A stretch of DNA of 26,690 nt from a virus: IMG/VR virus record IMGVR_UViG_3300041955_000453, positions 1 through 26,690 of that record; one strand, given 5' to 3'. The position numbers were made by a program, and so were the translations under genes. Below the pieces are notes generated by a model. It was not told where the DNA came from and did not search any database. It saw nothing but the letters and a program-made list of their open reading frames with translations. Of this stretch, positions 1,593 through 20,367 are shown piece after piece (within the stretch, counting starts at the first letter, position 1; each line of letters starts with the position of its first letter).

Positions 1593-2533
1593 TCGGGCCA
1601 TAGGGGGTCTATTTCGGCGGCCTTTCGCGCATCGTGCCGCGATTTTGGCTGTCTTTCGCGCGCTCAGCACGTTTTTTCGAGGTCATTCGCTCGGCCAAAC
1701 GCCTTTGCCTTCAGGCACCGATCAGGGATGGGCCGCCGGCAGATCATCGCGCGTCCCGACCGCCAGCTAGCCGCGTGAGCGACGGCCGACCGCGGCGGCA
1801 AACCTTGGCGGGATCGCTGGCGCGCCGGTCGTGCCAGACTGCCCAGTCGAGCTGAGGGGCGATCGCTAATGGCCGCCTTCTGCCGTCCATGACTAGCCTG
1901 CCAAACGCCGAGCCTCAACGATCGCAGGGGCAATGGCGCGCCAGTCAGTAGCCCGCGGCTTTGGGCCGCCTGTCCGCGGGCTTCCTCACGCCGCTGTCGT
2001 CGTGGACGTTTTCCCGATCATCGCGCTGGCAGGTGTCGGAGAGAGCCGACTGATTGCCATTTGTCTGTCACGCCGCGGAATATGCAGGCACGAGCGCCGG
2101 CGGGAAACGTGGCAGCAACCGAAACGTAATCGCTCATCTTCTTGAGAGTCAGCCTGCCGCCATCCACTCGGCACCGCTCGTCTCGATCAAGCGCCACGCA
2201 CGATCCGCGCGCGCTCAGCGATGCGCCGCGCGGTTTGGGCTCAATCGCTGCCCCAAGAATTCCTGCGCCGGTTTCTCTGGGGCCACTTTTCTTCACGGTT
2301 AGAGGCGCATCGCCGCGGGCTTTAGCGCGCTTCCCGATGGGCAAGCGGACATAGCGATAGGGCGCAGGAACTCCATTGTGCGCAGGAACTCCGTTGTGCG
2401 CAGTTTGCGGCAAGAATCGACGTAATTCTGTGAGAATCGGCCGGTTTCAATGAATACCGTTTGCTATGTGTCGGCAGCAGGGAATAGTTGCAATGTGGTC
2501 GCAAGTTTCAATTCTCACCTTGGAGCAACAGCA
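1593..2533. other. Gene-free stretch
   Basis: Frames are open here on both strands only because stop codons are rare in GC-rich DNA. None has a ribosome site plus recognisable protein. The longest candidate is a minus frame at 2018-2413 that would need a TTG start inside a tandem repeat, so I did not accept it. The only clear structure is the short tandem repeat at 2362-2397. Confidence 0.55.
2362..2403. repeat. 18-bp tandem repeat, two copies plus a 6-bp third start
   Basis: gcgcaggaactccattgt (2362-2379) is followed immediately by a copy (2380-2397) differing at one base, then by gcgcag (2398-2403). The unit is 18 bp, hence frame-neutral, but I find no supported gene over it. Confidence 0.8.
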
Positions 2534-2830
2534 ATGAAGAAGCAACCTTTGTTTGACGTGTCTCGGTTCAATCGCATTGCCGACAAGCACAACATCCCTT
2601 GGATTGACCGGATTCCCCTTATCGAAACCGTTTGCTGGGGGAGCAAGGGTTGGCTCGATTCCGCCCTTGTCGCCAAACTGCGCGGCCGATGGAACGGATA
2701 CCGGCGCAATGCCGAATACGGCAAGTTCATGGGCGAAGTTATGTCCGCGCTGTCCGCGGATTCTCCGCACAAGTTCCCGCCTAAAGACTGGCAACCCTCC
2801 AAGGCGCAACTTGCCAGCATCGGGGCCTAA
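2534..2830 (+). CDS. Hypothetical protein (98 aa)
   Basis: I do not recognise this protein. It starts MKKQPLFDVSRFNRIADK and is a soluble, mixed-charge polypeptide with several Trp residues, no signal peptide, no membrane segment and no cysteine cluster. ATG 2534 was chosen over the upstream in-frame ATG (2450) because TGGAG at 2521-2525 gives a well-placed ribosome site and the 28 extra residues look untranslated. Codon use in this frame resembles a real gene (GC-rich third positions, several Lys/Arg codons). A good intrinsic terminator lies 70 bp after the stop, which supports an independent transcription unit. Function unknown. Confidence 0.6.
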   Translation: MKKQPLFDVSRFNRIADKHNIPWIDRIPLIETVCWGSKGWLDSALVAKLRGRWNGYRRNAEYGKFMGEVMSALSADSPHKFPPKDWQPSKAQLASIGA

Positions 2831-2897
2831 CAGGGCGCGCCACATTCCAGTCTAATCGGGGCGCGCCGAGAAGCTAGAACAATCCGCGCGGAATCGC

Positions 2898-2930
2898 AAG
2901 GGCAAGGGCAATCACCCCTGCCCTTTTCTA
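2898..2930 (+). terminator. Intrinsic terminator after the 98-aa gene
   Basis: AAGGGCA (2898-2904) pairs with TGCCCTT (2919-2925), extended inward by AGGG / CCCC with one mismatch around a 6-nt loop. The stem runs into TTTTCTATT. This is a classical GC stem plus T-tract in the plus direction. Confidence 0.7.
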
Positions 2931-2984
2931 TTGCGCCGCGCGCGCCGTTGCCCTGTTGCTCCCTGCCCGTTGCCGTTGTCGGCA

Positions 2985-3018
2985 GGGCAAGCGCCAAACC
3001 TTCTCGGTTCTCCGTTGC
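2985..3018. repeat. 34-bp dispersed repeat, copy A
   Basis: The 34-bp segment starting gggcaagcgccaaacc occurs again at 3442-3475 with one mismatch. The two copies bracket the minisatellite. Both are followed at a distance by a tract of gaatc/ctgaatcgag words ending in aggtaaa (near 3111-3142 and 3494-3532), so the duplication may be larger but decayed. Confidence 0.8.
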
Positions 3019-3207
3019 CCTGTTGCCCTGTTGCTCCCTTGCGGGGTTGTGGCGTTGTGGGGTTGCCGATCGGTCTTGACGGAACCCCTTGCCGATCGGC
3101 CGTTAGAATCGAGAATCAGCAATCAGGAATCGAGAAGGTAAAGCATGTGCGGACAATGCGGCGCGCTTCCGGCGCGCCGTGATTGCGCCGCATGTAGAAG
3201 AGAGTTG

Positions 3208-3446
3208 ACCGGGCAGCACGTCGGCAACCGATCTTGACCGGGCAGCACGTCGGCAGCACGTCGGCAGCACGTCGGCAACCGGGCAGCACGTCGGCAACCG
3301 GGCAGCACGTCGGCAACCGGGCAGCACGTCGGCAACCGGGCAGCACGTCGGCAACCGGGCAGCACGTCGGCAACAGGGCAGCACGTCGGCAACAGGGCAG
3401 CACGTCGGCAACCGATCTTGACCGGGCAACCGATCTTGACCGGGCA
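3208..3446. repeat. Minisatellite: 11 copies of a ggcagcacgtc core, mainly 19-bp period
   Basis: The core ggcagcacgtc starts at 3212, 3241, 3252, 3263, 3282, 3301, 3320, 3339, 3358, 3377 and 3396. From 3263 on the period is exactly 19 bp (unit cggcaaccgggcagcacgt). From 3241 to 3263 it is 11 bp. The array is flanked by accgatcttgaccgggca words at 3227, 3411 and 3429. There are no unique spacers, so it is not CRISPR. The 19-bp period is not a codon multiple and no stop occurs in the unit, which explains the spurious long frames over it. Confidence 0.9.
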
Positions 3447-3475
3447 AGCGCCAAACCTTCTCGATTCTCCGTTGC
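3442..3475. repeat. 34-bp dispersed repeat, copy B
   Basis: Second copy of the repeat at 2985-3018 (33 of 34 bases identical), at the right edge of the minisatellite. It begins within the last accgatcttgaccgggca word. Confidence 0.8.
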
Positions 3476-3570
3476 TATGCCACCGTAGCATTGTGAATCT
3501 GGAATCCGCTATCTGTGAATCGAGCAGGTAAACCGGCGCAATTTTCACGCGCGGTTAGCGCGCACGGTTA

Positions 3571-3616
3571 GTGTTGCAAGGTTACAACTAGGTATCTAGT
3601 TGCAACCTTGCAACAC
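3571..3616. repeat. 46-nt near-perfect hairpin (21-bp arms)
   Basis: Bases 3571-3591 are the reverse complement of 3596-3616 except for one base, with a 4-nt loop (gtat). The arms carry internal ttgcaa/ttgcaac words. No T-tract follows on either strand, so it is not a standard terminator. It could be a mobile-element or recombination-site remnant, a structured RNA, or an attachment or cleavage site. The role is unknown. Confidence 0.85.
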
Positions 3617-4337
3617 GGCACGACCGCCAAGCTCGTCAAGGCCGGCATGATCGGCACGCTTCCAGCCCGTCTGGGCCGCATGTGCCGACTTATCAAGTCA
3701 ATCGACGTTGAACGATTGCAATGATAACCAGTTGCCATGCAATGGTTTATGACGATTGCAGCTACAATGCTGCCATGTTCGCCAACGGGCAGGGGCCGGG
3801 TGGGGTCAAATTCATCACAACCAGTTCGACCGGCAAAGTCGGCACAACCGGCCGCTCCTTCGTCTGTCGGCGGTGATCGCGGCTGGGGTCTGACGCGGCA
3901 GTCCAGGCCCAAAACTCGTGCCGTCCAGAGGAGGGGCAGGCGGGAGGGATCAAAAGATCACGTTGACGAGAAAGGTACTTAACACAGTGGACGCGGCTGC
4001 TTCCCCCGGAGGAGGCATAATAATCAGTCCTTTCGCAGATCGAGCGTTTTGCGCCGCAACTCAAAGCGTACCAATATGTTATGCTGAAACTGCGCCGACG
4101 GAAGGACCAATCAGGACCAATTCCTTATTATCACAGTAGTACAACGTAGTTAGCGCATTTAATCAGAGCGCATATATGTGAGAATAGGGCGAGCCTGCCG
4201 CGTCAAAGGCTGTTTTGTGACGTAACCTTCTCGATGCCATAGACTTAGCATCAAGAACAATCAGTCCTTGAAAGGACCGAATCGGTCCTTGGAATCAGTC
4301 CTTTGGCTTTTGTGGTCAAAGGGACCGGCCAAGGGCT
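3617..4337. other. Gene-free stretch upstream of the recombinase region
   Basis: No supported gene. A 25-codon plus frame (3647-3724) reads MIGTLPARLGRMCRLIKSID and looks protein-like, and it is open upstream through the right arm of the hairpin at 3596. It may be a gene fragment. At 3726-3747 an imperfect palindrome (AACCA...TGGTT around TTGC/GCAA) is flanked by two direct copies of acgattgca (3712-3720, 3752-3760). This stretch is the natural place for a phage attachment site, but none can be proven here. Confidence 0.5.
4259..4304 (-). terminator. Hairpin and ggact/ggacc repeats at the end of the minus-strand gene
   Basis: AAGGACCG (4272-4279) and CGGTCCTT (4283-4290) form an 8-bp stem with a 3-nt loop. 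They are flanked by direct aatcagtcctt words at 4259 and 4293, with a further copy at 4022. It lies about 50 bp past the stop of the minus-strand gene and could end its transcript, but no clear T-tract follows. Arms and repeats are seen; the terminator role is inferred. Confidence 0.35.
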
Positions 4338-4828: not shown

Positions 4829-4979
4829 GACTGACTCTGAAGAAATGCAAGTGAGCGATAGATTGAATTCTGGTCGGATGTCGTGTAAGCTTGAAGTAAG
4901 GTTGAGGTAGAGGAAGTTGAGGCTGAGCATAGAGACTCATGTAGCATCAATCGGTTGTAACGAACGAAGCGAGAATCCC

Positions 4980-5768
4980 ATGAAGCGGTATGTTGCCTAT
5001 TATCGCGTTTGGCCCAAGAAAAGCTGCTCCAGCGTTGAGCTTGCCACTCAGTCGCTCGAAGCCAGGCGTTTTATCAGCCACAACGGCGGGCGGCTGCTTG
5101 CCGCTTACACCGACCGGGAGAACAAGCGTGGCGACCGGCCGGAGTTCGCCAAAGCCGTCGAACATGCAATTCGGTCTGACGCCGTGTTAGTGATTGCTCA
5201 CTTGGGCCGGCTGTCGCGGAACGTCCCCTTCACCCACCTGTTGCTGGAAAGCCATGTTGATTTTGTTTGCCTGGATGACCACGAGGTCAACCGCCGGACC
5301 ATCCACATTATGGCAAGCGTGGCTCAGGAAGAAACCCGCAAGGTCAGCGACCGGGCCAAGACCGCCCTGGCGGCGGCAAAGGCGCGCGGCGTGAAACTCG
5401 GTTGCGCCCGTCCCGGCCACTGGGACGGCCGCGAGCATTTGCGGGGAACGAAGAAAGCCATCGCGGCGGCGGCCAAGAAGAAACGCGAGGTGACCAAGAA
5501 CACCTACGCCTTTCTGATGCCGGAGATCAAGGCCCGGCGGGAGCGGGGCGAGACGCTGCCCGAGATCATGGACTGGCTGAACGGGCAGGGTCGTAAGACC
5601 ACGGCTGGCAAGCCCTTCACTCAGACCGCCGTGTGGCGGCTGATCGACCGCTACCTGGGCAAGGAATGGCTCGGCAACATCAAGAAGCGGACTCAGGGGA
5701 GCAAGGTCAATCCGGGGACCGGGCCAAAGGGAGGGAAGAAGCGCGGCCGCAGCTTGGAACGATTATGA
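4980..5768 (+). CDS. Serine recombinase paralogue lacking the catalytic serine (262 aa)
   Basis: The resolvase/invertase-type fold is clear: residues 4-10 YVAYYRV, 75-81 LGRLSRN, 111-133 MASVAQEETRKVSDR with an Ala-rich helix, then a C-terminal DNA-binding part with LNGQGRKTT and AVWRLIDRYLG. In active enzymes YxRV is followed by the nucleophilic Ser, usually as ST. Here positions 11-12 are Trp-Pro. The conserved Asp of LDRLxRN is also changed, giving G76 in LGRLSRN. The neighbouring enzyme at 6336 keeps both and shares GHWDGRE(H/Q)LRG, MPEIK/VPEIK and the WRLIDRYLGK ending, so they are paralogues. It may serve as a non-catalytic DNA-binding subunit or directionality partner. ATG 4980 begins the conserved fold; the ribosome site is weak. 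The next gene overlaps its stop by ATGA. Confidence 0.85.
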   Translation: MKRYVAYYRVWPKKSCSSVELATQSLEARRFISHNGGRLLAAYTDRENKRGDRPEFAKAVEHAIRSDAVLVIAHLGRLSRNVPFTHLLLESHVDFVCLDDHEVNRRTIHIMASVAQEETRKVSDRAKTALAAAKARGVKLGCARPGHWDGREHLRGTKKAIAAAAKKKREVTKNTYAFLMPEIKARRERGETLPEIMDWLNGQGRKTTAGKPFTQTAVWRLIDRYLGKEWLGNIKKRTQGSKVNPGTGPKGGKKRGRSLERL

Positions 5769-6190
5769 AAGCGAAGCGAAAGGCCGAGACCCGAGCGACG
5801 ATGGCGGCGAGGTTCCCGCCGCCCGACCAGTTCCCTTGGCGTGCCGGCCCCTACCGCGCCCCCCAGGTCCACGTCGGCGCGGTGCTGCACGACGAGCGCC
5901 GAGGCGACGTGACGGTGAGGGGCTTCAGCGAATCGCCGATCCCCTGGCCGGCGACCGACTACAAGAAAGGTCGGCAGGAGGCGCTGCTGCCGGTCCTCTG
6001 CGGCGATTTGGTGCGGGCCGTGTGTGAGGAGGACGAATTGACGGTCGCCTACTACTGGAGCGTGACCCGGTACATGGTCGAGCAGTGGAAGCGGGCGATC
6101 TCCGGGGCCACCACGTCCAACGCCGTGTTCACCGCCCTGGCGGTGAAGCGGAACGATCCCGAATTCCGCAAGCGATTCGGCTACCAATGA
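5765..6190 (+). CDS. Putative HTH-like DNA-binding protein coupled to the recombinase (141 aa)
   Basis: The start ATG overlaps the recombinase stop (ATGA at 5765-5768), so translation is probably coupled. The N-terminus is basic (MKAKRKAETRAT), followed by a segment with IPWPATDYKKG and then CGDLVRAVCEEDELTVAYYW and SVTRYMVEQWKRAI at about residues 79-113. That last part reads like a helix-turn-helix (alternative-choice helix ending with SVTRYMVEQWKRA). I recall similar planctomycete proteins with a CGDLVRAVR...WGVSxxTVxxWR segment, but their function is not established to my knowledge. Position between two recombinases suggests a recombination accessory or regulatory role. No cysteine cluster, no signal peptide. 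Confidence 0.65.
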   Translation: MKAKRKAETRATMAARFPPPDQFPWRAGPYRAPQVHVGAVLHDERRGDVTVRGFSESPIPWPATDYKKGRQEALLPVLCGDLVRAVCEEDELTVAYYWSVTRYMVEQWKRAISGATTSNAVFTALAVKRNDPEFRKRFGYQ

Positions 6191-6335: not shown

Positions 6336-7106
6336 GTGAACAAGAAGCTCGTCAAGATCGTCGCCTACTACCGCGTGAGCACGAAGCGGCAGGGCAAGAG
6401 TGGCCTTGGCCTCGAAGCCCAGAAGGAAATGGTCCGCCAGTTGGTGTTGGCTCACGGGGCAACCCTGATTGCCGAGTACGTGGAAGTCGAGACGGGCAAG
6501 AAGGCGGCGCGGCCGACGTTGCGAGAGGCGATCCACCACGCCCGGCTGACCAACTCGACGCTGGTGGTCGCCAAGCTGGATCGGCTCGCCCGCAATGCCG
6601 TTTTCCTCCTCACCCTGCGCGACTCCGGCCTTCCCTTGGTCTTCTGCGATCTTCCTGATGCCAGCGAACTGACCGTTGGCATCATGGCGGTCGTCGCCCA
6701 GGCTGAGGCCAGGATGATCTCGGATCGGACGAGGGCGGCTCTGGCTGCAGCGAAAGCGAAGGGCACGCTGCTGGGTTCCGCCCGGCTCGGTCATTGGGAC
6801 GGACGCGAGCAACTGCGGGGTATCAGGAAGGCGCAACCCTTGGGGGCGGTCGCCAATGCCCAGAAAGCGCAGAACCGCTACCAGCAAGTGCTCGTGCCCG
6901 AGATCAAGCGGCGGCGAGAGGAAGGCCAGACGCTCGATCAGATTGTGACCTGGCTCAATGGTCAGGGGTTCAAGACGCGGCCGACGAAGCGCTGCAAAGA
7001 GGGCGGCGTCTTCACCCACATGATGGTCTGGCGGCTGATCGACCGCTATCTGGGCAAGGATTTGCTGGGGAACATCACGAATCGACAGCTTGTGGCGTGC
7101 AACTAG
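6336..7106 (+). CDS. Serine recombinase, resolvase/invertase family (256 aa)
   Basis: It catalyses site-specific DNA strand exchange through a 5' phosphoserine link and is the likely integrase/excisionase of this element. Visible features: VAYYRVSTKRQ (nucleophile Ser15, Arg13), LDRLARN at 81-87 with Asp82, Arg83 and Arg86, the helix EARMISDRTRAALAAAK, and a C-terminal HTH-like tail (EGQTLDQIVTWLNGQG, then MVWRLIDRYLGKDLLGNI). At 256 aa it is far shorter than the large serine integrases and closer to resolvase-type recombinases. GTG 6336 was chosen for the ribosome site CTGGAG 9 nt upstream. It is paralogous to the Ser-less protein at 4980. A short frame overlaps its 3' end. The substrate site is not identified. 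Confidence 0.92.
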   Translation: MNKKLVKIVAYYRVSTKRQGKSGLGLEAQKEMVRQLVLAHGATLIAEYVEVETGKKAARPTLREAIHHARLTNSTLVVAKLDRLARNAVFLLTLRDSGLPLVFCDLPDASELTVGIMAVVAQAEARMISDRTRAALAAAKAKGTLLGSARLGHWDGREQLRGIRKAQPLGAVANAQKAQNRYQQVLVPEIKRRREEGQTLDQIVTWLNGQGFKTRPTKRCKEGGVFTHMMVWRLIDRYLGKDLLGNITNRQLVACN

Positions 7107-8226: not shown

Positions 8227-8775
8227 ATGCAACGTGTCACCGACCTGGCCGACCCCCGCCGCTGCAAGGGCGCAAGCCTGGATGGCCAGTGCCAGAACTT
8301 CGCGGAAGAGGGGTCAGACTATTGCCGCGTCCACGGCGGCAAAGATCAGGCACCTGCTCGACGCTTGAAGCAGTACCTCTTGACCAAGGCCCAGGACCGC
8401 GAGCGGCTGGCCCAGTTTGCGGAAAACGACGCGCTGAAAACGCTCCGGGAAGAGGTGGTCGTCGCCCTGGGTCAATTGGAACGACGGCTGAGTCTTGCCC
8501 ACCGCTCGGACGCCGAATTTCTGGCCGCCTATCCCGAGGTCGAGAGATCGCTGAGGCTGCTGGCCGGACTGAAGAAAGACAATTTCTCCCTGGAACAAAA
8601 GACCGGCGCGACGCTTTCGCGGGAGCAGGGCTTTGCGCTGGTGCGGTTGATGCTTGAGATCATCGTGGACGAGTTGGAGGGCATCCCGCACTACGAGCAG
8701 ATTGTTGAGCGGATCACCATGCGAATCCTGCCAACGGTCGAACGCGCCGGCAATCCTGAAGTCAATCCCGCATGA
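8227..8775 (+). CDS. Phage protein with N-terminal zinc motif ending in HGG (182 aa)
   Basis: The N-terminus carries C13-x8-C22-x10-C33-x2-H36 (RRCKGASLDGQCQNF...DYCRVHGG), a zinc-knuckle-like motif common in phage proteins that start with a host-type RCxxxTxxGxxC...CxxH pattern. The rest is helical: LKQYLLTKAQDRERLAQFAE, a central helix with LGQLERRLSLAHRSDAEFLA, and a C-terminal helix pair. Such architecture is seen in small-terminase-like or DNA-packaging accessory proteins, but the large terminase lies 4 kb downstream, so I do not assign that role. AAGGAG at 8211-8216 sets the start. The next gene overlaps by ATGA. Confidence 0.7.
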   Translation: MQRVTDLADPRRCKGASLDGQCQNFAEEGSDYCRVHGGKDQAPARRLKQYLLTKAQDRERLAQFAENDALKTLREEVVVALGQLERRLSLAHRSDAEFLAAYPEVERSLRLLAGLKKDNFSLEQKTGATLSREQGFALVRLMLEIIVDELEGIPHYEQIVERITMRILPTVERAGNPEVNPA

Positions 8776-8999
8776 ATGTCGTCTGCGAAGTCTGCGGCAG
8801 CCGTCCAGCGATGTTCAACGAAACCCGTTGCGAGAATTGCTGGGCGGACGACCAAGACCATTGCGACCGGCGACGGCCCGCCAACGTCCACACGATGCTC
8901 AACAGTTCGCGGGAGGTGAACGATGTCCCTGTCTCGGCACAACCCGTTCATCCCCGACGAGATCAAGGTGGGAGACATTGTGGGGTTCAGCGGCGATAG
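8772..8999 (+). CDS. Small CxxC zinc-ribbon-like protein (75 aa)
   Basis: It starts on the ATGA overlap with the preceding gene (8772-8775). The first 30 residues contain two CxxC knuckles, CEVCG and CENCW, spaced as in a small zinc ribbon, then DDQDHCDRRRP. The C-terminal ~25 residues are encoded by DNA that also encodes the start of the next protein in another frame (overlap 8923-8999). That tail is less protein-like, so the functional part is probably the N-terminal ribbon. Function unknown; probably nucleic-acid or protein binding. Confidence 0.5.
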   Translation: MNVVCEVCGSRPAMFNETRCENCWADDQDHCDRRRPANVHTMLNSSREVNDVPVSAQPVHPRRDQGGRHCGVQRR

Positions 9000-9525
9000 C
9001 TGGCTGAGCGCGTTGGTCAATATCGCCACCTACGGCTTACCGTTCTGGGGACTTAGCCATGTCGGTGTTCTCGGGCACGCGGACGACGGCCGGCTGCTGC
9101 TCTTCGAGTCCACGCAACTTGACGGGCTGCCTTGCGAAATCACTGGCGAAGTGTTCCTGGGAACGCAAGCCCACCAGTTGGAACACGTCGTTGAAGTCTA
9201 CAAGGGAAAGGTCTGGCGCTACCCGCTCTACCGGCCGCTCTATCCGACCGAAGACCGGCGACTCACCGACTTCCTGATGGCCACGATCCACACGCCCTAC
9301 GACAAGCTTGGGGCGATCCGTTCGGCGGGCGTTGGCTTGTCTTTTGTCGAGTCCTTGCTGCATCCTGACAACCTCAATTCCATCTTCTGCTCGGAGTGGG
9401 TGGCCGCCGCCTACGCCTGTGTCGGCCTCTGGGCCACTGCCCATGTGGCGCGATGGAACCCCAATCGACTCGCCTGGTGGTTGCGTGCGGCCGGGGTCTT
9501 GCGGAAGCCGAGGAGATTGAAGTAG
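8923..9525 (+). CDS. YiiX/NlpC-P60-type permuted papain cysteine hydrolase (200 aa)
   Basis: The protein has the circularly permuted papain-like layout: VGDIVGFSG (15-24), then LSHVGVLG with His46, LLLFEST with Glu62, and late in the chain IFCSEWVAAAY with the nucleophile Cys156. Family members cleave peptide or amide bonds, often in cell-wall peptides, and some act on lipids. There is no signal peptide, so it would act in the cytoplasm or need a holin-type exit. GGGAGGTG just before ATG 8923 is a strong ribosome site. Sitting in a phage block with two lipoproteins and membrane proteins, it is the best endolysin candidate in the window, but the substrate is not shown by sequence. Confidence 0.8.
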   Translation: MSLSRHNPFIPDEIKVGDIVGFSGDSWLSALVNIATYGLPFWGLSHVGVLGHADDGRLLLFESTQLDGLPCEITGEVFLGTQAHQLEHVVEVYKGKVWRYPLYRPLYPTEDRRLTDFLMATIHTPYDKLGAIRSAGVGLSFVESLLHPDNLNSIFCSEWVAAAYACVGLWATAHVARWNPNRLAWWLRAAGVLRKPRRLK

Positions 9526-10013
9526 TGAAGTGGATTCCACTGACGCAAGGCAAGGAAGCAATTGTTGACGACTGCGACTATGACCACTTGATGCAGTGGA
9601 GGTGGTTCTATCACTGGAAAGGCCGATCAACAGGCTATGCGCAGCGTGCTGAGTATGCTAACGGCCAACAGAATAAGGTCTATCTGCATCGTGTGGTTGC
9701 TGAGCGGTGCGGTCTGGAGACGGTGGGAAGGCAGATTGACCATGTTGATGGAGATGGTCTGAACAATTGCCGCAACAATCTTCGGGTCGCAACAAACCGC
9801 CAGAATGCGGGCAATCAGAAACGTCAGTGCAACAACACATCTGGTTTCAACGGCGTTGTGTGGGCGCAACGGGAAAGAAAATGGCGGGCACGGATTGGCG
9901 AAGGTGGTAGACAACATCTTGGCTACTTCGATGATCCGCGCGATGCTGCAAGGGCCTATAACGAGGCCGCAATGAAACATTTCGGGGAGTTTGCATGTCT
10001 CAATCCGGTCTGA
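9525..10013 (+). CDS. HNH homing-type endonuclease with C-terminal AP2 DNA-binding domain (162 aa)
   Basis: The N-terminal part has the common phage/planctomycete start IPLTQGKEAIVDD...YDHLMQWRW. The HNH core follows: YLHRVVAE (His55), then RQIDHVDGDGLNNCRNNLRV (His73, Asn81/86). Residues ~104-162 are an AP2 domain (TSGFNGVVWAQRERKWRARI, LGYFDDPRDAARAYNEAA). It makes site-specific DNA breaks and is probably a free-standing mobile gene. GTG 9525 overlaps the previous stop by one base and GAGGAG (9510-9515) is the ribosome site; the gene also overlaps the next by 19 nt. Base composition is visibly AT-richer than both neighbours, a sign of recent arrival. Confidence 0.9.
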   Translation: MKWIPLTQGKEAIVDDCDYDHLMQWRWFYHWKGRSTGYAQRAEYANGQQNKVYLHRVVAERCGLETVGRQIDHVDGDGLNNCRNNLRVATNRQNAGNQKRQCNNTSGFNGVVWAQRERKWRARIGEGGRQHLGYFDDPRDAARAYNEAAMKHFGEFACLNPV

Positions 10014-10567
10014 AACGAACCCTCTTCGCGCTGGCTCTGCTGGTTGCGGTCGCAGGCTGCGAAGTCACCGAGACTGCAACAAACCACGCGGCCAAGAAGG
10101 AACGGCCCACAGTCAACGTCCCGGAAGTGCTGCGGCAACGCAACTGGATCGGCGACCAGGGCATGGGGTCTTGCGTTCACGCCACCATGATTTCGCTGCT
10201 CCGCTGGCAGTACCGGCTGAAGACGGCCGACCACTGGCGGCAGACCTACGGCGACGGCGAGCAGCCGGAAGACCTGGCCGCGAAGCTCGATCGAGAAGGA
10301 ATCCGTTACGCCTATGTCACCAACGGCGACGTGCGATTCCTGGAATGGGCGTGCCGCACACGGCGCGGGTGCGGCATTACGGTCATGGGCGGCGCGCACA
10401 TGGTCGCCCTGGTGCATCTCGATGAGAAGTGGGCCGCAATCCTCGACAACAACAACGTCGAGACATTCATCTGGGTTCCGCGAGAGACGCTGATCGCTGA
10501 ATGGAAGGCGAGTTACGGATGGGCGGTGACGCCGATCTACGCCCCGGCGGCTCCGCTTCCACAATAG
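9995..10567 (+). CDS. Lipoprotein with papain/C39-like cysteine peptidase domain (190 aa)
   Basis: A lipoprotein signal is clear: KRTLFALALLVAVAGC with lipobox VAGC, so Cys22 would be lipidated and the protein anchored outside the inner membrane. The mature part reads like a C39-type papain fold: QRNWIGDQGMGSCVHATMIS (Cys60), GGAHMVALVHLDEKWAAILD with His135, and DNNN at 151-154 as the third active-site position. Substrate unknown: cell-wall peptides, secreted peptides or surface proteins are possible. GGGGAG precedes ATG 9995. A lipidated peptidase is unusual in a phage late region and may act in lysis (with the hydrolase at 8923) or in altering the host surface. Confidence 0.75.
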   Translation: MSQSGLKRTLFALALLVAVAGCEVTETATNHAAKKERPTVNVPEVLRQRNWIGDQGMGSCVHATMISLLRWQYRLKTADHWRQTYGDGEQPEDLAAKLDREGIRYAYVTNGDVRFLEWACRTRRGCGITVMGGAHMVALVHLDEKWAAILDNNNVETFIWVPRETLIAEWKASYGWAVTPIYAPAAPLPQ

Positions 10568-10602
10568 TCCCCGAAACACATTTCGCAACGAGAGAGGAAA
10601 CC

Positions 10603-11292
10603 ATGAACAAGCTGCTCCTGAGTGTGCTGTGCCTGCTCGCCGTGTTCGCGGCGGTCGTGCCCTGCTTCGCCGATACCGTCAACGGTGTCCTGGCCGAAGA
10701 GCGGGTCGTCAATCTTCCGCAAGACCAGAGCAAGTGGTACGTCAGCGTGGTTGGCAATGCGACCGACTCCCGCTACAACGAGATCGTGGGCTGGTTCGAC
10801 ACCAACGCCAGCCTGAAGAAGCTGAAGGATCAGGTCCAGTTTTGCCCGGTCACGAGCGACACGGCCGTCTACCAAGCCCGTTACGCCGGCAACGTGAAGG
10901 CTTTGCCCACTGTGCGGATGCAGAAGGCGGACGGCACGGTGGTCTACGAAGCGGCCGGGAAGTACCTGCCCATGACGGCGGCCGGCTTGAACGGTGCCTT
11001 GGCAGGCGCGGTCAGTACGGCCGAGGGAATTCGTCCGATTCTGCCTTGGCGGCGGGACATGGAGCGTCGGTGCCCTGGCCCCTGCCCGAATCCGCAGCCG
11101 AATCCGCAACCGCAGCCGGACCCAGCGCCACAGCCGATTGACGACGGCGGCACGCCGAACGTCGATCCCGACGTGCAGGCGGAGCCGCCCCTTTGGCCGC
11201 TGGCCCTGGTGTGTGTTGGCGGCGTGATCGTAGGCATGGCCGGCGGCTACGGCAAGAAGCTGTACGCCAAGTTGAATCCGCCCGTGAAGTAG
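10603..11292 (+). CDS. Exported, membrane-anchored thioredoxin-fold protein without active-site cysteines (229 aa)
   Basis: Signal peptide at residues 1-23 (MNKLLLSVLCLLAVFAAV..CFA, cut before DTV). Residues ~38-135 resemble a thioredoxin fold: WYVSVVGNATDSRYNEIVGW where a CxxC active site would sit, then FCPVTSDTAVYQARYAG, the cis-proline strand ALPTVRMQKADGTVVY and a last helix. No CxxC is present in the fold; a CPGPC motif (157-161) comes later, at the start of a Pro-rich spacer (NPQPNPQPQPDPAPQP). A TM segment follows at ~196-217, leaving a short basic cytoplasmic tail. ATG 10603 is chosen for GAGAGG just upstream and for the signal peptide. Probably a non-redox scaffold or binding domain; the fold assignment is moderate. 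Confidence 0.7.
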   Translation: MNKLLLSVLCLLAVFAAVVPCFADTVNGVLAEERVVNLPQDQSKWYVSVVGNATDSRYNEIVGWFDTNASLKKLKDQVQFCPVTSDTAVYQARYAGNVKALPTVRMQKADGTVVYEAAGKYLPMTAAGLNGALAGAVSTAEGIRPILPWRRDMERRCPGPCPNPQPNPQPQPDPAPQPIDDGGTPNVDPDVQAEPPLWPLALVCVGGVIVGMAGGYGKKLYAKLNPPVK

Positions 11293-11322
11293 TCGCGTTG
11301 TCTGCATTTCCCATGAACTTTC

Positions 11323-11340
11323 GGCCGTCGCAGGACGGCC
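11323..11340 (+). other. Small intergenic stem-loop
   Basis: GGCCGTC (11323-11329) and GACGGCC (11334-11340) form a perfect 7-bp stem with a 4-nt loop in the 73-bp gap between two membrane-protein genes. No T-tract follows. It may modulate transcript stability or partial termination. Confidence 0.4.
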
Positions 11341-11365
11341 ACCAACGAAACCCGGAGAAGAAAAG

Positions 11366-11854
11366 ATGAACCCCACCGTCGTGATCTGGATTCTGGCCGC
11401 CGTGGTCGCCGTGCTGGTCGGTCGTGAAGTCGGCAAGCGCCTCTTCGACGTGAACGCCAAGCTGATGGCGAAGAAACGCGCCGCCCAAGTGCTGGCCGCC
11501 AAGCTGCGGGACAACGGCCTGAAGCTGTTGCCCTCCCTGTTGGAAGACTTCGCCGTGGGCGACGTGGAGGACATGGTGGAGAAGATCCACGATGTCGCCA
11601 AGCTGGTCGAGTCCGGCAGTGACGCCATCGAGAAGGAATTGGAGCAGACCTACGAGAACGTGCTGGACCGGAAGCTCGCCACGCCGGAGGGCCTGGCCCT
11701 GATTAAGGCCAAGATCGCCGAGATCGAGGGTGCCCCGACCGCTGGCCCGGTTCCGGCCGCCGCGCCGACTGCGACCCCGGCCCCGACCGCTGCCTCGGCG
11801 GCCGCGCCGAGCACGGTGGCAGCCCCGGCTCCCACCGCCCCCGCCAAGTCGTAA
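11366..11854 (+). CDS. Single-TM protein with coiled coil and Ala/Pro/Thr tail (162 aa)
   Basis: Residues ~3-20 (PTVVIWILAAVVAVLVGREV) form one N-terminal membrane span. A charged helical region (KRLFDVNAKLMAKKRAAQVL...LEQTYENVLDRKLATPEGLA) follows, then a ~50-residue low-complexity Ala/Pro/Thr tail ending PTAPAKS. GGAG at 11356-11359 is the ribosome site. An N-terminal TM with a cytoplasmic charged body suits a holin-like or anchoring protein, and its place among envelope proteins supports this, but there is no diagnostic motif. The tail's codons are highly repetitive (gcc/ccg/acc). Function unproven. Confidence 0.65.
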   Translation: MNPTVVIWILAAVVAVLVGREVGKRLFDVNAKLMAKKRAAQVLAAKLRDNGLKLLPSLLEDFAVGDVEDMVEKIHDVAKLVESGSDAIEKELEQTYENVLDRKLATPEGLALIKAKIAEIEGAPTAGPVPAAAPTATPAPTAASAAAPSTVAAPAPTAPAKS

Positions 11855-11944
11855 GCCAACACACCGGCCGCACCGCTCCCCACCTCGGGTGACGTGCATC
11901 ATGGGCCGGTAGGAAAGAGGTCGGCCCTGCGGTCATACGCGGGG

Positions 11945-11995
11945 CCGATTCTCCGGCGGCTCCCGCAGCGATGGCGCGAGCCGCCCGAGAATCGG
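11945..11995 (+). promoter_or_regulatory. 51-nt hairpin overlapping the thioredoxin ribosome site
   Basis: Arms 11945-11962 and 11978-11995 are 18 bp with one mismatch, extended inward by CGC/GCG. The right arm includes the first two bases of GGAG (11994-11997), the only ribosome site for the ATG at 12007. The hairpin could hide that site or terminate/process the message; this is inference. Confidence 0.6.
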
Positions 11996-12006
11996 AGAAC
12001 CTTGCG

Positions 12007-12357
12007 ATGAAGCGACGAACGTTCCTCGCCCTGATGGTCCTTGGCGTGCTCGTTGGATGCGAGCAGCCGCAAGCCCCGATGCCGCCTGGCCATCCTTGCG
12101 AGCGGCCCGTGATGTTGGTCTTCACGGCGTCCTGGTGCGGCCCCTGCCAGGCGCAGAAGCCGCTGGTGTCCCAGATCGCGGCGGCGGGCGTCGATGTGCG
12201 GGTCTACGACGTGGACGAAAACCCAAAGATGGCGAGGAAATACGAGATCACGGCCACGCCGACCTACATCTTCTACCTGTGCGGGCGAAAGCCGCTGCGC
12301 ACGAACGACGCCAACGAAGTCCTGACGATCATCCGCAACGGCTGGGGTTGTCAGTGA
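12007..12357 (+). CDS. Lipoprotein thioredoxin with CGPC active site (116 aa)
   Basis: A short signal, MKRRTFLALMVLGVLVGC, carries a lipobox so Cys18 would be lipidated. The mature domain is thioredoxin: VMLVFTASWCGPCQAQKPLV (Cys44/Cys47) with the cis-proline in TATPTYIFY (Pro85). It should reduce or exchange disulfides outside the inner membrane. At 116 aa it is a minimal thioredoxin. ATG 12007 is chosen because it gives the signal peptide; GGAG is 10-13 nt upstream inside a hairpin. A phage-encoded lipidated thioredoxin is uncommon. With a papain-like lipoprotein and a Cys hydrolase nearby, it could keep catalytic cysteines reduced in the envelope. Confidence 0.85.
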   Translation: MKRRTFLALMVLGVLVGCEQPQAPMPPGHPCERPVMLVFTASWCGPCQAQKPLVSQIAAAGVDVRVYDVDENPKMARKYEITATPTYIFYLCGRKPLRTNDANEVLTIIRNGWGCQ

Positions 12358-12536
12358 GCCGCCGCTGCCGCAACTGCGACGAGCCGAAGCCGGCACCGGC
12401 ACCGAAGCCCGTGGAGTCAGTCGGCTCCCGTCCTCGCCGAGAACGAAACATGAGGTTGCGCCAGGCCGAACGCCGAAGCAACCAGCGAGCCGCACTTGTC
12501 GCTGACCTACGCGAACCTGAGACGCAACCTCGCTAA
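12354..12536 (+). CDS. Small Arg-rich protein (60 aa)
   Basis: The frame starts at GTG 12354, overlapping the thioredoxin stop, with GGGG upstream as a weak ribosome site, and ends 16 bp before the terminase start. The product begins SRRCRNCDEPKPAPAPKPVE (one CxxC) and continues strongly basic (RRERNMRLRQAERRSNQRAA). It fills an otherwise empty gap in a packed operon. It might bind DNA or be a small terminase-like accessory, but nothing specific can be recognised. Confidence 0.5.
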   Translation: MSRRCRNCDEPKPAPAPKPVESVGSRPRRERNMRLRQAERRSNQRAALVADLREPETQPR

Positions 12537-12552
12537 AACATGACGCCGCCCC

Positions 12553-14226
12553 ATGAAGTTTGTGGACGAGTTGCGACAAGCCTTGGGCGAAGGATTAGAG
12601 AGCAGGAACCTGCGGTCGTGCAGCCGGTGGTCCGAACACCGGCGGGTGATGGGGGCACCCTTCAACGGTCCTTACAGCTTCGTGCGGCACCCCTGGTGCC
12701 GTGAGATTCACGACAGCCACGCCGCATGGACGATTGCGATGAAGGCCGCCCAGTTGGGCGTCACCGAGACGGGGATCAATCGTGCCTTCTTCACTCTTGA
12801 CCAATCGAAACGGGACGTTCTTTACGTCCTGCCAACAGCGATCAACGCGAGCGACTTTTCCAAGGCTCGATTCGCCACCGCACTGAAGCTCAGTCCTTAC
12901 TTGAAAGACCTGTTCGTCGATACGAACACCGTTGGGCTGAAATCAACCGGCAGGAACGTCCTTTACATTCGCGGGAGCCGTGGCGACAGCAACTTGAAGT
13001 CCATCCCGGTGTCCGAGCTTGTCTTGGACGAGATGGACGAAATGGACATTCACGCGGTATGGCTGGCCCTGGAGCGACTGTCAGGCCAGATCGAGAAACA
13101 CATCCTGGCGATCTCGACGCCGACCGTGCCGAAGTACGGCATCCACAAGCTCTACCTCACCAGCACCCAGGAACATTTTGTCTTTGAGTGTCCGCATTGC
13201 AGACGATGGACGGAGTTGGTCTGGCCGGACTGTGTGGAGATCATTGGCGAATCGGTCAACGACCCGCGCTGCAAGGAATCGTTCCTCAAGTGCAAGGAGT
13301 GCAAGCACAAGCTGGAGCACGAAGCCAAGCCGGAGTTCCTGGCCGGCGGCAAGTGGCAGGCGACAGAGCCGAACGTCTCGCCAGAAGAATCGCGTGGTTT
13401 TTGCATCAACCAACTTTACTCGTCCACGGTAACGCCGGGCGAATTGGTGATCGCCTACCATCGCGGACTCGGCGACGAGGCGGCGAACACGGAGTTCCAT
13501 TGCAGCAAGCTGGGCGTGCCGTTTATCGGTGAGGGTGCCCAGGTCACGGACGCGATGATCGAAGCCTGCATCAAAGGGCACTCGATCAACGACACCCGGC
13601 CGCAGATCGGCGGCGACCGCTTGATAACGATGGGCGTGGACCAGGGCAAGACCGGCTACATTTCCGTCGTGGACTGGTTGTTCGATAGGCACCCCGGCAC
13701 CGACATCAATGCGGCGGCCATCGGCAAGCTGTTGTGGTTCGGCAAGTTCTCCGGTGAGGAATGGGGGTATCTGGACGAGTTGATGCGGGAGTGGCAGGTC
13801 TTGGCCTGCGTGGTGGACGCGGACCCGTTCACCAATGACGCCCGCCGCTTCGCCAAGAAGTTTCACGGCTACGTGTGGCTGACGCGATACCGGCGAGGAC
13901 GGACTGCCAAGGAAGTGACCTTGAGCGAGGAGGAGACGGGAGCGCCCTTCGCCACGGTGGACCGCACCAATTGGCTGAGTTGCACGCTGGGTCGCTTCAA
14001 GAGCAATCCACCGCGAATCCTCTTGCCACGCGACATTTCGCTGACCTACCGCGAACACATAAAAAACTTGGTCCGCACCTATAAGAAGGACGAACTGGGC
14101 AACCTGGCGGCCGAGTACGTGAACACGGGTGCCGACCACTTCGCACACTCCTTGTGTTACGCCGACATCGGCCTGTCGTTGGCACCCATCTCGTCCGGCG
14201 GCGAGAACATCGGAAAAGTGACGTGA
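12553..14226 (+). CDS. Phage terminase large subunit, GpA type (557 aa)
   Basis: The ATP-driven motor and nuclease that packages phage DNA into proheads. ATPase part: IAMKAAQLGVTETGINRAFF (61-80) takes the place of the Walker A loop in the GpA style (Lys before the loop rather than GKS/T), and VSELVLDEMDEMD is Walker B. A zinc-ribbon-like insertion has FECPHC and CKEC. Nuclease part: MGVDQGKTGYISVV and CVVDADPFTNDAR supply acidic residues, with TGADHFAHSLCYADIGL near the end. Length is normal for the shorter GpA members. ATG 12553 has a poor ribosome site and probably relies on coupling with the small gene upstream. The small subunit is not obvious next to it. Confidence 0.92.
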   Translation: MKFVDELRQALGEGLESRNLRSCSRWSEHRRVMGAPFNGPYSFVRHPWCREIHDSHAAWTIAMKAAQLGVTETGINRAFFTLDQSKRDVLYVLPTAINASDFSKARFATALKLSPYLKDLFVDTNTVGLKSTGRNVLYIRGSRGDSNLKSIPVSELVLDEMDEMDIHAVWLALERLSGQIEKHILAISTPTVPKYGIHKLYLTSTQEHFVFECPHCRRWTELVWPDCVEIIGESVNDPRCKESFLKCKECKHKLEHEAKPEFLAGGKWQATEPNVSPEESRGFCINQLYSSTVTPGELVIAYHRGLGDEAANTEFHCSKLGVPFIGEGAQVTDAMIEACIKGHSINDTRPQIGGDRLITMGVDQGKTGYISVVDWLFDRHPGTDINAAAIGKLLWFGKFSGEEWGYLDELMREWQVLACVVDADPFTNDARRFAKKFHGYVWLTRYRRGRTAKEVTLSEEETGAPFATVDRTNWLSCTLGRFKSNPPRILLPRDISLTYREHIKNLVRTYKKDELGNLAAEYVNTGADHFAHSLCYADIGLSLAPISSGGENIGKVT

Positions 14227-20046: not shown

Positions 20047-20367
20047 ATGGATTTTCTACTCTTTGCCCAAGCAGGCGACACGTTCGCCGATGGGGTGGCC
20101 CTGCTCGCCCTACTCAAGCAGTATGGGCCGCTGGTCCTGGTCATGGCCTTCCTTCTTTGGCAAGGCTGGGTCCGCGAGGGCCGCATGAGCAAACGGATCG
20201 TGAAGTTGGAAGACGAGCAGCGGAACGTGCTAATGCCTCTTGTCGCGCGTTGCGCTGACGTGATCGCCCAGAACACTTTGATGATGGAGCGATTGGAGAA
20301 GGCCCTGGACGAGCGTTTCGATTGCCCGTGGCGACCCACCTGCGCGGAACAGCGGAAGCGAGGCTGA
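20047..20367 (+). CDS. Small single-TM, coiled-coil protein, holin-like (106 aa)
   Basis: Residues ~24-44 (LKQYGPLVLVMAFLLWQGWV) form one membrane segment after a short polar N-terminus (MDFLLFAQAGDTFADGV). The rest is a charged helix (MSKRIVKLEDEQRNVLMPLV) ending in a tail with two cysteines (DCPWRPTCAEQRKRG). Short proteins with one TM and an amphipathic helix between capsid and tail genes are often annotated as holins or haemolysin-XhlA-like. The function is uncertain. GGAG at 20036-20039 supports ATG 20047. Confidence 0.65.
   Translation: MDFLLFAQAGDTFADGVALLALLKQYGPLVLVMAFLLWQGWVREGRMSKRIVKLEDEQRNVLMPLVARCADVIAQNTLMMERLEKALDERFDCPWRPTCAEQRKRG

Follow-up and report, generated by a model that had tools for sequence, protein, structure and literature searches.

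A block of five late genes in the viral record IMGVR_UViG_3300041955_000453 centres on a predicted lipid-anchored, C39-like cysteine protease and a thioredoxin-fold membrane protein that accompanies it wherever the locus can be judged. The record is a linear IMG/VR entry of 26,690 bases, analysed over its whole length and here called the window; within it the block spans positions 8923-12357. More than 100 contigs keep the order and strand of these genes, which is conservation far above chance, and the block is a hallmark of planctomycete phages rather than a feature specific to the window phage. We infer, with moderate confidence, that it serves a wide set of these phages as a late envelope-breaking (lysis or egress) module. 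This reading is preferred because the block is universal in its family, late and compact, combines hydrolases with envelope-anchored proteins, is exchanged as a unit, and has no recognised alternative in the genomes that carry it. The genes and the two terminase genes that bound them are listed below; assignments are based on homology, and the gene caller put the wrong strand on this short GC-rich window.

8227..8775, plus strand: TerS-like protein, candidate small terminase (weak match to phrog_3678; position before YiiX kept in relatives)
8923..9525, plus strand: YiiX, a permuted papain/C92-like cysteine hydrolase of 200 residues, predicted cytoplasmic (residues, weak profiles)
9525..10013, plus strand: HNH/AP2 homing-type endonuclease (HNH_3, E = 4e-9; phrog_99, E = 1.5e-39)
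9995..10567, plus strand: predicted C39/papain-fold cysteine protease, a lipoprotein (conserved triad, AlphaFold model, lipobox)
10603..11292, plus strand: TrxTM, a thioredoxin-fold protein with a proline-rich stalk and a C-terminal transmembrane segment (fold comparison, hydrophobic stretches)
11366..11854, plus strand: TMcc, with a single N-terminal transmembrane segment, a helical domain and an Ala/Pro-rich tail (hydrophobicity and charge pattern)
12007..12357, plus strand: TrxLp, a lipoprotein thioredoxin with a WCGPC motif (PF00085)
12553..14226, plus strand: TerL, gpA-type large terminase (GpA_ATPase, E = 2.6e-30; phrog_675, E = 6e-86)

All five open reading frames named in a preliminary description of this DNA lie on the plus strand where that description placed them, with TerS to their left and TerL to their right. 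The name TerS is a probable one, given from size and position. The HNH/AP2 endonuclease at 9525-10013 lies within the block and had not been mentioned; it matches many phage HNH families in Pfam and PHROG, and since most relatives lack the gene we regard it as a passenger between YiiX and C39.

Scans with C39 and TrxTM returned more than 100 loci, 81 after identical C39 copies were dropped, and each gene was counted over those C39 loci on contigs long enough to show it. TrxTM follows C39 in 79 of 79 loci and TMcc is present in 75 of 77. YiiX precedes C39 at 58 of 62 loci, and TrxLp is found at 58 of 71, being absent or unrecognisable in the remaining 13. A scan started from the terminase gives a test unbiased by these queries: on 33 contigs from it TerL is preceded by 4.5 kb or more of sequence, and each of them carries the complete block of five genes (33/33). 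Linkage of C39 to TrxTM in 79 of 79 loci and complete blocks in 33 of 33 show that the genes are not independent and rule out their independent assortment, which would have counted against the dedicated system suggested in the preliminary description. The core is thus C39-TrxTM-TMcc, with YiiX and TrxLp as frequent accessories. The G031, G429, G421 and G373 lineages have no YiiX and keep C39-TrxTM.

The block is carried by at least three phage backbones. The window-type arrangement, with the block between TerS and TerL, accounts for 60 loci. A second backbone, represented by 12 loci, has TerL, portal and coat proteins without a match to those of the window, and at most of its loci the block begins no more than about 45 nucleotides past the gene for a protein of ~1,500 residues, where the structural genes end. 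The third (G031, and a prophage of the closed genome G429) carries C39-TrxTM-TMcc with TerL 8 nucleotides downstream, and has neither YiiX nor TrxLp. G373 is akin to this third backbone and G421 to the second. No homology of TerL or portal between the three backbones was detected with phmmer. In the C39 phylogeny at least five changes of the label for the second backbone are required across well-supported branches (bootstrap values are rough), from which we conclude that the module has been exchanged between backbones several times. Its sites are always within the late operon, either beside the terminase or behind the last structural genes, and these are places in which phages commonly carry their lysis genes.

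All identified hosts of the block are Planctomycetota. In a scan of 84,980 species the protease was found only in this phylum, in Pirellulales metagenome-assembled genomes and a 444-kb planctomycete contig, and a profile search located it in 4 of 392 planctomycete genomes, where TrxTM occurs in the same neighbourhoods and the loci are prophages. No relative of C39 or TrxTM was found among the cultured phages of INPHARED.

Best read as the conserved catalyst of the predicted lysis module is the C39 cysteine protease. Residues C60, H135 and D151 are conserved in the 81 distinct relatives, and a lipobox is present in 32 of 37 relatives (AGC22 in the window member). The preliminary description spoke of exported or lipidated peptidases; this holds for C39 but is wrong for YiiX, which has no signal peptide. 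The AlphaFold model of C39 (pLDDT 79) matches C39 and papain peptidases in Foldseek (E about 2e-3), and its VIA alignments to these enzymes cover about 120-134 residues at Z about 11. Among them is PeiR (8z4h), a pseudomurein endoisopeptidase, with Z 10.8. The nearest neighbours among viral models include several annotated phage lysins, none of them under E 0.001. Sequence searches were negative: none of 37 members matched the Pfam C39 families at E up to 1, no chain was matched in a PDB profile search, and Pfam and PHROG searches with C39 and TrxTM gave no meaningful match. The modelled structure therefore points to a papain-like fold with a Cys-His-Asp triad, and we call the protein C39-like without assigning it to Pfam C39. 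It shares fold and triad with papain-like and C39 peptidases and with PeiR, whose substrate is a cell wall other than murein. It differs from them in its small size, its lipid anchor, its constant pairing with TrxTM and the lack of any sequence match.

TrxTM had been described as an exported thioredoxin-fold protein with a proline-rich stalk and a transmembrane segment, and each part of that description is borne out. The thioredoxin fold is supported by Foldseek (E 1.8e-4) and VIA (Z 10.5), and hydrophobic stretches are present at the N terminus in 42 of 42 relatives and at the C terminus in 41 of 42. No cysteine is among the conserved columns of the alignment, and the lone cysteine of the window protein varies, so TrxTM is probably not a redox enzyme. 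In G084 and G231, weak TrxTM matches extend no further than the proline-rich or C-terminal part and were rejected as low-complexity.

Likewise, TMcc is the membrane protein with a low-complexity tail that had been reported, having one N-terminal transmembrane segment (in 38 of 38 relatives) and an Ala/Pro tail. Lysine and arginine residues average 0 before this segment and 3.4 after it, and because positive charges occur only after it the helical domain and tail are predicted to be cytoplasmic (N-out/C-in), unlike an i-spanin. Searches of Pfam and PHROG with TMcc found no family match and no holin, and the spanin check gave only a weak match to the Rz-like phrog_1152 (E 0.015).

TrxLp, described earlier as a CGPC lipoprotein thioredoxin, is confirmed as such by its match to Pfam Thioredoxin PF00085 (50 bits, cut-off 23.5). 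Both cysteines and cis-Pro85 are invariant in 38 relatives, and a lipobox is present in 31 of 38. CGPC is the commonest motif (21 loci), and the other loci have CAPC, CVPC, CPAC, CEPC, CPTC and others, some of which are known from extracytoplasmic thioredoxins. In its signal or lipobox, WCxxC motif and cis-proline TrxLp resembles extracytoplasmic thioredoxins (TlpA/ResA/CcmG-like proteins and lipoprotein thioredoxins). It differs in being phage-borne and an accessory of a protease cassette, one in which TrxTM also has the fold without a CxxC. Two types of TrxLp, one with about 80% and the other with about 47% identity to that of the window, occur in phages whose neighbouring genes are more than 85% alike, a pattern suggesting that TrxLp is exchanged locally.

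The preliminary description held that a lipidated thioredoxin keeps the papain-type cysteine reduced. This idea does not survive as a general mechanism: TrxLp is missing from 13 of 71 loci with the protease, so that a thioredoxin cannot be the obligate supplier of reduced cysteine, and the universal TrxTM has no conserved cysteine. Judging from gene content, the obligatory partner of the protease appears to be TrxTM, which has no active-site CxxC, and the CGPC lipoprotein appears dispensable.

Residues H46, E62 and C156 are invariant across 34 YiiX relatives, in the order His...Glu...Cys. Eight of the 34 match Pfam Peptidase_C92 at E <=1 (best 7e-4); the window protein itself does not, and its top match in a PDB profile search was a weak one to 3kw0, a permuted cysteine peptidase (E 0.1). 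These weak profile matches suggest a distant permuted NlpC/P60-like enzyme. YiiX shares the invariant residue order with the YaeF/YiiX permuted papain amidases (Peptidase_C92; 3kw0) and differs in forming a phage-specific subgroup within the cassette, whose window member lies under Pfam detection. No N-terminal hydrophobic stretch or signal peptide was found in any of the 34 relatives, and for this reason YiiX is predicted to be cytoplasmic.

A lysis module built from these parts could work as follows. The C39 cysteine protease, made late and held in the envelope by its lipid anchor, would act on an envelope protein, and TrxTM, anchored in the inner membrane and carrying a proline-rich stalk, would bind or present either substrate or protease across the periplasm. 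TMcc may be the membrane component for control, triggering or gating. YiiX, in the phages that have it, would take the endolysin role as a cytoplasmic cell-wall amidase that is freed last and finishes the thin murein, and TrxLp, in the phages that have it, may reduce disulfides of the wall or of the protease.

The arrangement resembles the lysis modules of T7 and lambda (holin, endolysin and Rz/Rz1) in its late position by terminase genes and in its compact set of hydrolase, transmembrane protein and lipoprotein. In T7-like phages the spanin genes 18.5/18.7 (Rz/Rz1) lie between packaging genes 18 and 19 (PMC4283147), the same slot as that of the block between TerS and TerL. In contrast to those modules, the block has no recognised muramidase, amidase, transglycosylase or spanin family, and has a cysteine protease and thioredoxin folds instead. 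The possibility raised in the preliminary description that it might be a known classical lysis cassette is not borne out, as the searches recognised no family of endolysins, holins or spanins.

Pfam scans of the complete G429 prophage and of the near-complete G018 phage named replication, packaging and structural proteins, and recognised no endolysin, holin or spanin in either. Amidase_2, Phage_lysozyme, SLT, M23, M15_3 and Amidase_3 were found in 0 of 26 carrier records, as was NLPC_P60, while controls worked. An M15 peptidase candidate from ten of the records was rejected, being gone even at E 10.

Several points weigh against a lysis function. Divergent lytic enzymes may be present elsewhere in the carrier genomes despite these negative profile searches, and small transmembrane proteins, either after the coat gene or XhlA-like and beside the block, could be the true holins. 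Spanins and T4-type holins do not have the N-out/C-in topology predicted for TMcc. Some carriers lack YiiX or TrxLp, so that the endolysin-like and reductive steps are not universal. Planctomycetes also have some peptidoglycan (Jeske 2015 and van Teeseling 2015, cited in PMC5814848), which leaves room for a divergent endolysin.

The small proteins mentioned above recur in the family. One with a single transmembrane segment and a coil is encoded directly after the coat gene (window about 20061-20367, G018 38334-38567, G009 59284-59583) and is family-conserved. Others, adjoining the cassette in several backbones, have an XhlA-like layout with an N-terminal coil and a C-terminal transmembrane segment in 90-95 residues (L202:16554-16823 minus strand, L178:5750-6019 minus, L168:3149-3433 minus, L175:19463-19747 plus); they do not match the Pfam XhlA model.

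Of the functions first suggested for the block, namely lysis, surface shaving or superinfection exclusion, the notion of a dedicated, co-inherited module stands and lysis is its best reading. Shaving and exclusion are less likely for a module that does not vary within its family and forms part of the late operon. Proteins made late or by the lysogen could in principle shave or alter receptors, sparing phages from debris or blocking injection, and exclusion factors are typically lipoproteins or transmembrane proteins; receptors might be stripped by a surface protease, and divergent TrxLp types are swapped among close relatives. Exclusion genes, however, are usually sporadic. The block is universal in its family (33/33) and present in several backbones, shows no separate promoter beyond chance level, is tightly embedded in the late operon and includes a predicted cytoplasmic hydrolase, so we consider exclusion or surface remodelling unlikely. 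Very unlikely, in our view, is that the proteins breach the envelope as parts of the particle or by insertion into the membrane when the phage enters. The block does lie among packaging genes in the window and, in the second backbone, directly after the gene for the ~1,500-residue protein, a likely ejection protein; but the lipoboxes of C39 and TrxLp and the signal peptide and transmembrane segment of TrxTM point to secretion by the host before assembly, and the tail genes of the third backbone are a long way from the block.

A further alternative divides the block, with only YiiX and a small transmembrane protein encoded elsewhere lysing the cell and the C39/thioredoxin core doing something else late in infection, for instance maturing or cleaving an envelope protein of host or phage. 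YiiX, which appears to be a permuted papain enzyme of the NlpC/P60-like group, lacks a signal and would need a holin as an endolysin does; a holin-like small transmembrane protein follows the coat gene, and C39-type peptidases often cut specific leader peptides (PCAT1, ComA). This division is nevertheless distinctly improbable, given that YiiX has been lost in four lineages where C39-TrxTM stays and that the module moves between backbones as a unit.

Beyond the block, the window carries further late genes after TerL (portal from 14239, scaffold from 17593, P22-type coat from 18554, tape measure from 23938). Upstream of TerS are two adjacent serine resolvase/recombinase genes (4977-5768 and 6336-7106), which are paired in relatives too. 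An SPFH/Band_7 protein ends the tail module of window-type phages (L180:680-1243, minus strand, in G018; G009 43888-44463). The two main backbones have in common an exported Trypsin_2 protease (G009 32718-33689, L164:12721-13689 minus strand; G020 38243-39139; also G011 2238-3125 and G015 2834-3841), which may be part of the cassette function. The 103-kb record G001 (IMGVR_UViG_3300050333_000165) has two cassette copies on opposite strands (5406-6101 plus, 75131-75820 minus) and represents either two prophages or a joined assembly.

A more specific form of the lysis reading is that planctomycete phages open their hosts chiefly by cutting the proteins and reducing the disulfides of an envelope that is built from protein and stabilised by disulfide bonds, with the lipid-anchored cysteine protease and its obligatory thioredoxin-fold partner replacing endolysin and spanins. 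The SDS-resistant envelope of planctomycetes has been reported to be Pro/Cys-rich protein stabilised by disulfides (PMC3035269; see also PMC2754498), which such cleavage would suit. Later work found peptidoglycan in planctomycetes, and we therefore hold this purely proteolytic version as tentative and rather doubtful. Phage lysis of planctomycetes appears to be undescribed: our literature search found no account of it, and neither planctomycetes nor thioredoxins are named in the main text of a 2025 survey on the lytic proteins of viruses (PMC12596118). A module common to unrelated planctomycete phages would mark such phages in metagenomes and would reveal what needs to be cut to open the planctomycete envelope. 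Its enzymes would also make the long dispute over whether protein or peptidoglycan forms the load-bearing wall directly testable.

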